Below are positions 26,645-40,318 of a DNA stretch of 45,960 bases, one piece after another (position 1 is the stretch's first letter; each line of letters opens with the position of its first letter). Origin of the DNA: an uncultured archaeon A07HR60 (GTDB lineage Archaea > Halobacteriota > Halobacteria > Halobacteriales > Haloferacaceae); contig KI543229.1 of NCBI GenBank assembly GCA_000496235.1, forward strand, positions 62,494-108,453, in the 5' to 3' direction. Below the pieces are notes generated by a model, which did not search any database, was not told the DNA's origin, and saw nothing but the letters and a program-made list of their open reading frames with translations. The position numbers were made by a program, and so were the translations under genes.

Positions 26645-27014
26645 GCGATTTTACAAGTGGTACGAGGCGAATGCCACGGGGTCGTTCGGAAGACGCACTC
26701 TTCCGTGATGACGAGAGACGCAGTCTCTCGAACCACGTGACCCCGTGGATGAAGCCGACACTATTTCTATAACCCACAATCGGTACATCTAACCAGCTAT
26801 TAACTGAAAACATGACGGTTGTTTGGTCTGACTGAGAGTCCACAAACACGGACGGTCAGGCTCCTCAACTGTCATGCACAACGAGGAGTGGGAGCCTCCA
26901 CAGTCACGCCTGTGGAGACGAGAACCACTGTGGGACAGATTCAGCCGAGAATCTGTCTTGCAAGTTCCGTCGTCGAAGCAGGAAGCCTCGGGGCGTGATC
27001 CCGAGGCACTTCAC
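26645..27014 (+). mobile_element. Non-autonomous IS605-type element without tnpB
   Basis: The left end (26645-26757) and the left end of the intact TnpB element (40281-40318) share the order GTCGGCTTCATCC, hairpin, TTCGCCTC. Here the hairpin is a three-way junction: P1 CCACGGGGTC (26674-26683)/GACCCCGTGG (26739-26748), P2 GGAAGA/TCTTCC (26688-26704), P3 GAGAGAC-gca-GTCTCTC (26713-26729). The right end ends in stem GCCTCGGG (26985-26992)/CCCGAGGC (27000-27007), preceded by GGAA as at the TnpB right end. Inside are further stems: AGGCTCC/GGAGCCT (26858-26897), CTCCACAG/CTGTGGAG (26896-26917) and GACAGATTC/GAATCTGTC (26934-26957). No tnpB remains. The series resembles a guide-RNA scaffold. An open frame through it (from 26874) looks like structure, not protein. 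Confidence 0.6.
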
Positions 27015-27280
27015 GTGTCGAAACGACTAATCGAGTTGATCATCGGTTGGAATGCTAGAAGATGCACAGGTCCTCTTGCCGAATGCGAATCTGGACACTC
27101 AAATCCAATCTGCCCGCTGCCGGAGAGTTCACCGACGCCTCACCCGTCAGAACGGAGAGGGAGTTGGGCCTGTAGACGTGTGCGCATGTGCACGAGTCGT
27201 CGCCCTCTTTCGTGTCCTCTATCTCATGGATAGGGCTTTGACTCTAGAGAACTAGATATTATCTAATAGGGATTGAACAT

Positions 27281-38883: not shown

Positions 38884-40318
38884 CTCCTCCCACGGCTAAA
38901 GCCGTGGGATTCCCCGATGGGGATATTAGGGTTGCGCGTTTCCTCGGCGGCTCAAATACGCTTTCGCGTGGCCAGCATCACAGGTCGCCACCCGATTACT
39001 ACCACGGGCGTGCTTTCCAGCGCGTATAGCTCGGTCAAACGAGCCTTCCCACCTGCACATGGCAGGCGACCACGAAGCGGTCGGCAGGTTGTTCAACCTG
39101 CTGGGCCGCACGGTTCGCGTCACCAGACGTGTTACGCCGTGCATGGGTCACCCTCTCTTTGACTGATGTTCTCCGCCGCATTCAAATCCGCGTGTCGTAC
39201 GTACCCACAGTGTGGACACTCGAACTTGCTCCCGTCACGACCAACGATTTCATCACACTGACTACACTCCTGACTCGTGTTCTCAGGGTCTACTTTCTCG
39301 ACTCGGATGCCTTCTTTTTCAGCTTTGTAACTGATGAACTGTTGGAGTTCGTAGAACGGCCACGAGTGGACGCCGTTCCACTCGCTACCGTCACGAATGT
39401 TTTTGAGGTCTTCAACTTTGATGACAGGATTACTGAATTGACTGACATACTCTACCAACCGCTTTGAGAGGGTGTGGTTCATATCTTTGATGCGACGGTA
39501 CTCCTTGTTACCCACGTGAGTTCGGGCGCGAAGCGCCCCAGTTTCCTGTAGAGAGTCACGCAGGGAACGGTAGTACCGCCGCACAAACTTGTGTTCCTTG
39601 CCACTCATAAGGAACGACGTAGCACTCGCATCGTCTGGTGTTGCAGCGAGGACGTAGTTATGACCAACGTCAACACCAATGGGTGTTTCCTCGCCGTTTT
39701 GTTGCTCATCATATTCGACAGTGAACGAGCAATGCCAGTCGCCGCCTTCCCGCCACACGCTAAGTTTCGTCTTCTCAGCATCACCATCAAGCAGGGCGGT
39801 TACAGGCTCTTCAATACTTTTGTGGACGTGGATTGGTGTGTACCACCAATCACTGATACAGGGGAACCCGATAATGACAGAACTGTTGTCTGTCGTGTGG
39901 ATTTCCCAGTTTTGATTGTTGGCTTCGATAGGTTGTTCGCCCGTGTACTCAATGGGTTCGTTGTCGTAGTCGCTTTTCGCGTTTCGGATGGCTTGGTTTT
40001 GGAGTGCTGAGTAGAGTGGATTATCAATGTCGCCAGTCGTCACGGACGAGGTGAGTGTGCCGTCTTTCCAGCCATCCACGAGCCATTGTTTGCACTCACG
40101 GAGGATGTGGGTGGCTCGTTGCCACTCTTGACGGCGAGAGCGGCTGGGGTTTCGGAACGTGGTTTCCACGCTTACCTCGACCATTACACGTGTAACGTAG
40201 AGTCGCAGTCAAATCAAGGTTGATGGTTCGGAACGGTGGAATATCCAGACGAGCGACTGAGCGTTGACCGTTGCCGTATTGTCGGCTTCATCCCACGGCT
40301 AAAGCCGTGGGCTTTCGC
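38884..40318 (-). mobile_element. TnpB-only IS200/IS605-type (IS1341-like) element
   Basis: An apparently complete element of about 1.4 kb. An identical 20-base hairpin (CCCACGGC-taaa-GCCGTGGG) stands at 38889-38908 and at 40292-40311, outside the two ends of tnpB. The right end, read on the minus strand, leaves the hairpin with GAGGAGGTCAAC, the expected end of the guide-RNA scaffold; the bases after it (from about 38878 down) would be the guide and a target-site neighbour. The left end reads GTCGGCTTCATCC, hairpin, TTTCGCCTC (plus strand). There is no tnpA (Y1 transposase), so movement would need help from elsewhere. Exact termini are not fixed. Confidence 0.75.
39132..40184 (-). CDS. tnpB: TnpB RNA-guided nuclease (IS605 OrfB), intact
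   Basis: A 350-residue protein. The RuvC catalytic triad is complete: D172 in GVDVGHNYVL, E258 in VEDLKNI and D333 in HADLNAAENI. The zinc ribbon has C307/C310 (CSQC) and C323/C326 (CPHC). The N-terminal 170 residues match the WED/REC-like part of TnpB, somewhat divergent. No stop or shift breaks it. TnpB proteins are programmable DNases guided by an RNA made from the element's right end; they keep the element in place by cutting donor sites. It is less GC-rich than neighbours in places, fitting recent arrival. The last residues (QREGDPCTA) end before the right-end hairpin. Confidence 0.93.
   Translation of the reverse strand: MVEVSVETTFRNPSRSRRQEWQRATHILRECKQWLVDGWKDGTLTSSVTTGDIDNPLYSALQNQAIRNAKSDYDNEPIEYTGEQPIEANNQNWEIHTTDNSSVIIGFPCISDWWYTPIHVHKSIEEPVTALLDGDAEKTKLSVWREGGDWHCSFTVEYDEQQNGEETPIGVDVGHNYVLAATPDDASATSFLMSGKEHKFVRRYYRSLRDSLQETGALRARTHVGNKEYRRIKDMNHTLSKRLVEYVSQFSNPVIKVEDLKNIRDGSEWNGVHSWPFYELQQFISYKAEKEGIRVEKVDPENTSQECSQCDEIVGRDGSKFECPHCGYVRHADLNAAENISQREGDPCTA

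Follow-up and report, generated by a model that had tools for sequence, protein, structure and literature searches.

A gene-less mobile element of the uncultured haloarchaeon A07HR60 keeps the scaffold of a TnpB guide RNA (omega-RNA), and comparison of related sequences gives good support, at the RNA level, for selection on this scaffold and for the description of the element as a non-autonomous guide unit. The element, designated W, occupies 360 bp at positions 26655-27014 of the window, i.e., the whole 45,960-nucleotide stretch of DNA that was analysed. It is a palindrome-associated transposable element (PATE) derived from an IS200/IS605 TnpB element, with which it has the left end (LE) in common. 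W contains neither a tnpB nor a tnpA ORF, and it is too short for a transposase gene.

The genome of W (G000; 2.88 Mb in 14 contigs, 82% complete) was searched for further copies. W belongs to a family, PATE-1, with about ten copies in this genome, which are full length or lack part of the left end, and with partial relatives in addition. The presence of other copies with the same ends had been set beforehand as a test of the first-pass annotation, which had placed the element at 26645-27014; the copy alignment confirmed its right boundary exactly and moved the left one by ten bases. The copies are collinear between a TTTAC-like pentamer on the left and TTCAC on the right, and their flanks are unrelated. 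In W, the target- or TAM-like pentamer TTTAC precedes the element (26650-26654), and TTCAC (27010-27014), the last bases common to all copies, forms both the right end of the element and the 3' end of the scaffold. Where the left flank of a PATE-1 copy was readable, the pentamer was TTTAC, GTTAC, ATTAC or TTGAC, and the sequence further left was divergent.

All parts of W were assigned on the + strand. The LE (26655-26761) aligns collinearly with that of the other copies and of a TnpB element in the same genome, L024, and includes a near-terminal palindrome (CCACGGGGTC, 26674-26683; GACCCCGTGG, 26739-26748). It is followed by a fast-evolving spacer (26762-26811), which would hold any promoter, by a 5' RNA module (26812-26880), and by the omega-RNA scaffold core (26881-26986). 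The subterminal hairpin of the right end (RE), GCCTCGGGG..CCCGAGGC at 26985-27007, is common to L024 and every PATE-1 copy. By analogy with omega-RNAs, the guide is predicted to be GTGTCGAAACGACTAATCGA at 27015-27034, which is insertion-site flank and differs in each PATE copy. W thus has IS605-like near-terminal palindromes at both ends and no inverted terminal repeat, and it falls outside the MITEs, since its two ends do not form an inverted repeat. No duplicated flank was seen in the aligned PATE-1 copies, whose flanks differ. In being gene-less, with such palindromes and without inverted terminal repeats or target duplication, W resembles the PATEs of Haloquadratum (PMC3119063). A search for empty sites of W and of other copies among the relatives and loci examined (40 joined flanks) recovered only the flanks of the elements themselves, and a DNA similarity search of phage records returned no PATEs.

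The LE palindrome of W encloses an inserted segment of about 55 nt (26684-26738) that contains two hairpins and is missing from two copies (C5b and C13) and from L024. This double-hairpin insert is present in PATE-1 and in another family, PATE-3, and has kin across the order with roughly 75-90% identity; similar sequence was the main matched part in 83 of 118 relatives (E<=1e-3). The insert is reminiscent of SMR-A, small mobile repeats for which PATE palindromes are a reported target in Haloquadratum (PMC3119063).

To describe the scaffold independently of W, covariance models were built from tnpB genes alone. The training set consisted of 14 tnpB 3' ends from the genome of W, taken from the first conserved hairpin to GGAAGC, and the right-end hairpin was excluded because transposition itself needs that hairpin. 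RNAalifold gave 25 pairs for these sequences, 13 of which had two-sided changes in at least one sequence, for example CCTG/CAGG to CCCA/TGGG. The resulting models, R1 (13 pairs) and R2 (25 pairs), matched W over their full length at 26881-26986 with 56.9 and 59.6 bits, respectively, and for R2 this was the single significant match in the window (E of about 2e-13). The earlier proposal that W is non-autonomous and has retained the scaffold of a TnpB guide RNA withstood two of the checks set for it, on copies with the same ends and on covariation of the scaffold. Both models also matched 10 of 10 PATE-1 copies and 7 of 7 copies of a further family, PATE-2. W is not a chance pattern, because it has about ten family members and its E value came from a model blind to them. 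At 60 bits, W scores about half as high as tnpB-linked scaffolds (100-120 bits), with a P1 stem of 4 bp rather than 5. No Rfam family scored above its threshold in the window.

The conserved helices in W are P1 (26885-26888/26896-26899), P0 (26909-26912/26979-26982), P3 (26917-26919 and 26922-26925 with 26964-26967 and 26969-26971) and the RE hairpin (26985-27007). The first-pass annotation had instead listed four successive stems as the scaffold. These are present as inverted repeats, with an RNA z-score of -3.8, but most of them do not belong to the conserved fold. The first is confined to W and its nearest sisters, only three copies have a perfect third stem, and covariation is uninformative on the second, which hardly varies. 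The covariation that had been anticipated does exist in the scaffold. W therefore combines the conserved scaffold sequence and secondary structure of a tnpB 3' end, as judged from R1/R2 and covariation, with the RE hairpin close to the element end at 27014 and a flank at the guide position that varies per copy. The scaffold does not lie at the 3' end of a tnpB gene, and 31 of the 32 standalone scaffolds of this genome have no TnpB zinc-ribbon match within 1.5 kb. Because there is no adjacent tnpB gene, we classify W as standalone omega-RNA-like and not as a canonical tnpB-linked omega-RNA.

Selection on the RNA was assessed with 30 standalone PATE scaffolds. A de novo fold of these sequences gave the central helix, in which 4 of 4 pairs were changed on both sides. 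When the structure was imposed on them, 91.4% of the cells were paired, compared with 31-44% when the partners were slid. The number of doubly changed cells was 51 against a shuffled mean of 20.5, and none of 500 shuffles was as high, although such shuffle figures overstate significance and are indicative only, because related copies are not independent. In the central helix, PATE-1 has GAAC/GUUC and the best-paired copies of PATE-2 have GCAC/GUGC, while the family PATE-4 and most tnpB genes have GCGCU/AGCGC. Changes of this kind also occur within families: GAU/AUC is found in the PATE-1 copies C5a and C13 and GAC/GUC in the others, and the P0 pair C-G is U-A in two PATE-2 copies. The tnpB frame is shifted in C10a, C13, PATE-2 and three PATE-4 copies. 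Among the PATE-1 copies, 26 of 106 columns were variable in the scaffold core vs 59 of 119 in the spacer region between LE and scaffold (Fisher p=1.2e-4), and this conservation of the scaffold could in part reflect recent spread or gene conversion.

The module at 26812-26880, directly 5' of the scaffold, forms three nested covarying helices and occurs in PATEs of the genome of W and of two other genomes, G080 and G006. In the alignment of this module (A6), 13 of 20 pairs had two-sided changes and 92.7% of the cells were paired; there were 90 doubly changed cells vs 29 expected, and none of 500 shuffles reached this number, which is indicative in the same limited sense. G-U/U-G pairing was kept at columns 26/52 and 28/50 in 23 and 31 of 34 sequences, respectively. 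Since these two pairs are kept as G-U/U-G in most sequences, the module points to an RNA on the + strand and not to a DNA palindrome.

The covariance model of the module, R3, which matched W with 55.3 bits, also matched inside tnpB ORFs, with 31-40 bits in the better cases. The matched site precedes the tnpB scaffold by about 700 nt and spans the codons for YSQSGFxLxxxxGQ, for example at 2168-2209 of L024 and 2887-2927 of another TnpB element, L060. In 15 tnpB genes, the hairpin was formed at 164 of 180 pair positions, vs 99 +/- 6 when synonymous codons were randomised, and the observed value was never reached in 2000 trials. From this test, tnpB mRNA carries an internal hairpin that is constrained beyond the protein code, and the hairpin is a separate RNA element in its own right within the tnpB reading frame. 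The core of the module of W (26823-26863) is homologous to it, on the evidence of the R3 matches and the synonymous-codon test. By sequence homology, then, the 5' module is a descendant of the tnpB-internal hairpin, which PATEs have retained beside the scaffold. The earlier statement that no tnpB is left in the element is accordingly right for the gene, which is absent, but two tnpB-derived stretches persist, the hairpin and the 3' end. A source in the DRD/zinc-ribbon codons was also considered for the module and ruled out, as the model search placed the source in the ORF interior.

The hairpin of PATE-1 is nearer to the L024 type (30-32 of 39 positions in C5a) and that of PATE-2 to the L060 type (29-30 of 39), and these affinities agree with those of the left ends. 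Because the outer helix is common to both families, one old PATE ancestor with converted ends is favoured over independent origins. Full-length R3 matches (E<=1e-6) were obtained in 5 of 109 relatives, from four genera, with filters that lose weak matches.

Standalone scaffolds are abundant. R2 detected 55 scaffolds in the genome of W, of which 32 were standalone and 23 adjoined a TnpB match. In G080 (2.66 Mb, from another family), 30 of the 45 scaffolds were standalone and 15 were TnpB-linked. In G006 (chromosome of 3,148,033 bp), which we take to be Haloquadratum walsbyi C23, 41 were standalone and 12 linked among the 53 matches listed. In these three haloarchaeal genomes, gene-less guide units outnumber nuclease-linked ones of the same type, which suggests a parasite borrowing the nucleases of other copies. 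PATE-4, with 14 copies in the genome of W, has the same layout of module and scaffold as PATE-1. On the other hand, PATE-3 (L017-L023; L018 at 13.9-14.3 kb) is about 430 bp long and has the left end of W with a different interior, rich in inverted repeats. R1 and R2 found no match in PATE-3, which is possibly another guide or ncRNA type.

These data bear on the possibility that W is a dead deletion derivative, moved by TnpA through its ends, with the scaffold as an inert leftover of tnpB that spreads passively. In general, the ends alone should suffice for Y1 transposition. The origin of PATEs by core deletion of IS605-type elements is documented in Haloquadratum (PMC3119063). However, the compensatory changes within and between PATE families would be left unexplained, the core is constrained relative to the spacer, and both RNA modules are retained in several genera. 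Moreover, PATE-3 spreads without this scaffold, so that mobility does not demand its retention. We consider a dead derivative unlikely.

The parentage of W is indicated by L024 (G000:C8:18.7-20.1 kb). Its left end begins with TTTACAGAAATACCAAGGCGAATGCCACGGGG.. and is the same LE as that of the sister copies of W (TTTACAGAAATACCA..GGCGAATGCCACGGGG..), its right end, ..GGAAGCCTCGGGGCTTGATCCCGAGGCAGTTCAC, is that of PATE-1, and the TTTAC flank is also common to both. The TnpB of L024 (414 aa) has retained the D, E, D and zinc-ribbon motifs and can be aligned to ISDra2 TnpB structures across most of its length. The genome of W contains 77 TnpB zinc-ribbon matches vs one Y1 TnpA in the 82% complete assembly. 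The first-pass annotation had looked for the partner nearer by, in the TnpB element at 38.9-40.3 kb of the window. The likeness of the left ends (GTCGGCTTCATCC .. TTCGCCTC, on the opposite strand) does exist but is a general feature of the family, and the supposed common right end did not hold up, because that element ends in GTCAA and W in TTCAC. Its TnpB (39132-40184, 350 aa, minus strand) was ruled out as the partner of W, as the scaffold model finds nothing at its 3' end and the right end differs. The partners of W are likely to be TnpBs of the L024 and L060 types elsewhere in the genome.

From these observations, W is probably a guide-only parasite of TnpB elements, formed by deletion and using the nucleases of other elements in trans. 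It would have arisen from an L024-related TnpB element by an internal deletion that took nearly all of tnpB and spared both transposition ends, the 3' omega-RNA scaffold and the tnpB-internal hairpin, which now adjoins the scaffold on its 5' side. Excision of W and its insertion at TTTAC-like sites would be the work of a Y1 TnpA supplied in trans. Transcription from left to right through the right end would make the flanking 16-20 nt the guide, and TnpB from other elements of the L024 or L060 type would bind this RNA. The complex may then cut the rejoined empty site (TTTAC plus guide) after excision, or sister chromosomes without the copy, and repair would restore or copy the PATE. Haloarchaea are polyploid, and cutting could therefore also spread a PATE copy onto sister chromosomes. 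No second targets for 58 guides were found among the loci examined, an outcome that is expected and lends no positive support. A wider interpretation, which we offer tentatively and with some doubt, is that the PATE RNA may be a bipartite guide, in which a deletion joined a functional tnpB-internal domain (YSQSGFxLxxxxGQ) to the omega-RNA scaffold, and that guide-only elements may have out-multiplied nuclease-bearing ones as trans-acting drives in several haloarchaeal genera.

The RNA of W might instead bind TnpB as a decoy or regulator, by titration or by control of tnpB mRNA through the common internal hairpin, and not as a guide. The 5' module is common to tnpB mRNA itself, and the scaffold copies are many per nuclease gene, both of which fit such a role. 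However, the scaffold reaches the element end with the 3' hairpin 7 nt away, so that every copy has a full guide position and there is no anatomical bar to guiding; we regard a role as decoy or regulator as distinctly improbable. A very remote alternative is that the inverted repeats act as DNA, in TnpA binding or as single-strand transposition hairpins, as the LE and RE palindromes of the IS200/IS605 family generally do, but the constrained helices match the tnpB scaffold, sit 30-200 nt inside the RE and have kept G-U/U-G pairs on a single strand.

If W is indeed a guide-only parasite, natural TnpB systems would work substantially in trans, one nuclease gene serving dozens of gene-less elements that each bring their own guide, and the persistence of PATEs would be explained. 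Such elements would be the counterpart in nature of a CRISPR array, dispersed in the form of transposons. TnpB is an ancestor of CRISPR-Cas12, and the arrangement would bear on the separation of nuclease and guide on the way to Cas12. Altae-Tran et al. in 2021 reportedly described standalone, trans-acting omega-RNAs of IscB loci as guide scaffolds without a nuclease gene; these would resemble W in being nuclease-free but belong to IscB rather than TnpB. Work on Geobacillus TnpB is also said to contain remarks on PATEs.

PATEs were named in 2011 in Haloquadratum walsbyi and were partly understood as degenerate non-coding ends of IS605-type elements, and one of them, HqIRS71, looks like an IS605 end that extends into C-terminal coding sequence (PMC3119063). 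The guide-RNA scaffold, the covariation and the second module reported here go beyond that description. The scaffold of W follows the TnpB omega-RNA/reRNA of IS200/IS605 elements in consisting of a tnpB 3' end and the right end, with the guide from the flank, and differs from it in the extra 5' module and in having no tnpB in cis (PMC8612924, PMC10278001). Processed TnpB omega-RNAs are 79 to 466 nt long, and their RE hairpin lies no more than 10 nt away from the 3' terminus of the scaffold (PMC10278001). In Halobacterium salinarum, the sotRNAs or circular omega-RNAs of IS200/IS605 elements are transcribed and have a common structure with the RE hairpin; the searched text of that report mentions no standalone or trans unit like W (PMC12558985). 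A literature search, mostly outside subscription papers, found no paper joining PATEs to omega-RNA guides. PATEs were therefore already known, whereas, as far as could be checked, their conserved cargo of guide RNA is new, as is the tnpB-internal hairpin.

Transcription of a PATE has a precedent in the halovirus HRTV-DL1 of Halorubrum lacusprofundi, whose gene-less PATE of 489 bp is transcribed very strongly, on one strand, in its 3' part; the same authors remarked that a Halobacterium PATE is active as an ncRNA (PMC10544981). The HRTV-DL1 PATE lies between ORF2 and ORF3 at about 600-1095 of OP630574 (L199), and neither the scaffold model nor the 5' module model matched it. It was therefore ruled out as direct expression evidence for the type of W, and, being of another type, serves as a precedent for PATE transcription only.

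A PATE-1 copy with its flanks was also observed in a 3-kb piece of GL982569.1 (L198), a record binned as a nanohaloarchaeon and labelled Candidatus Nanosalinarum J07AB56. This piece is 96-99% identical to the C7 locus of the genome of W, flanks included, and the record is therefore probably a chimeric scaffold with a haloarchaeal stretch rather than a case of transfer.
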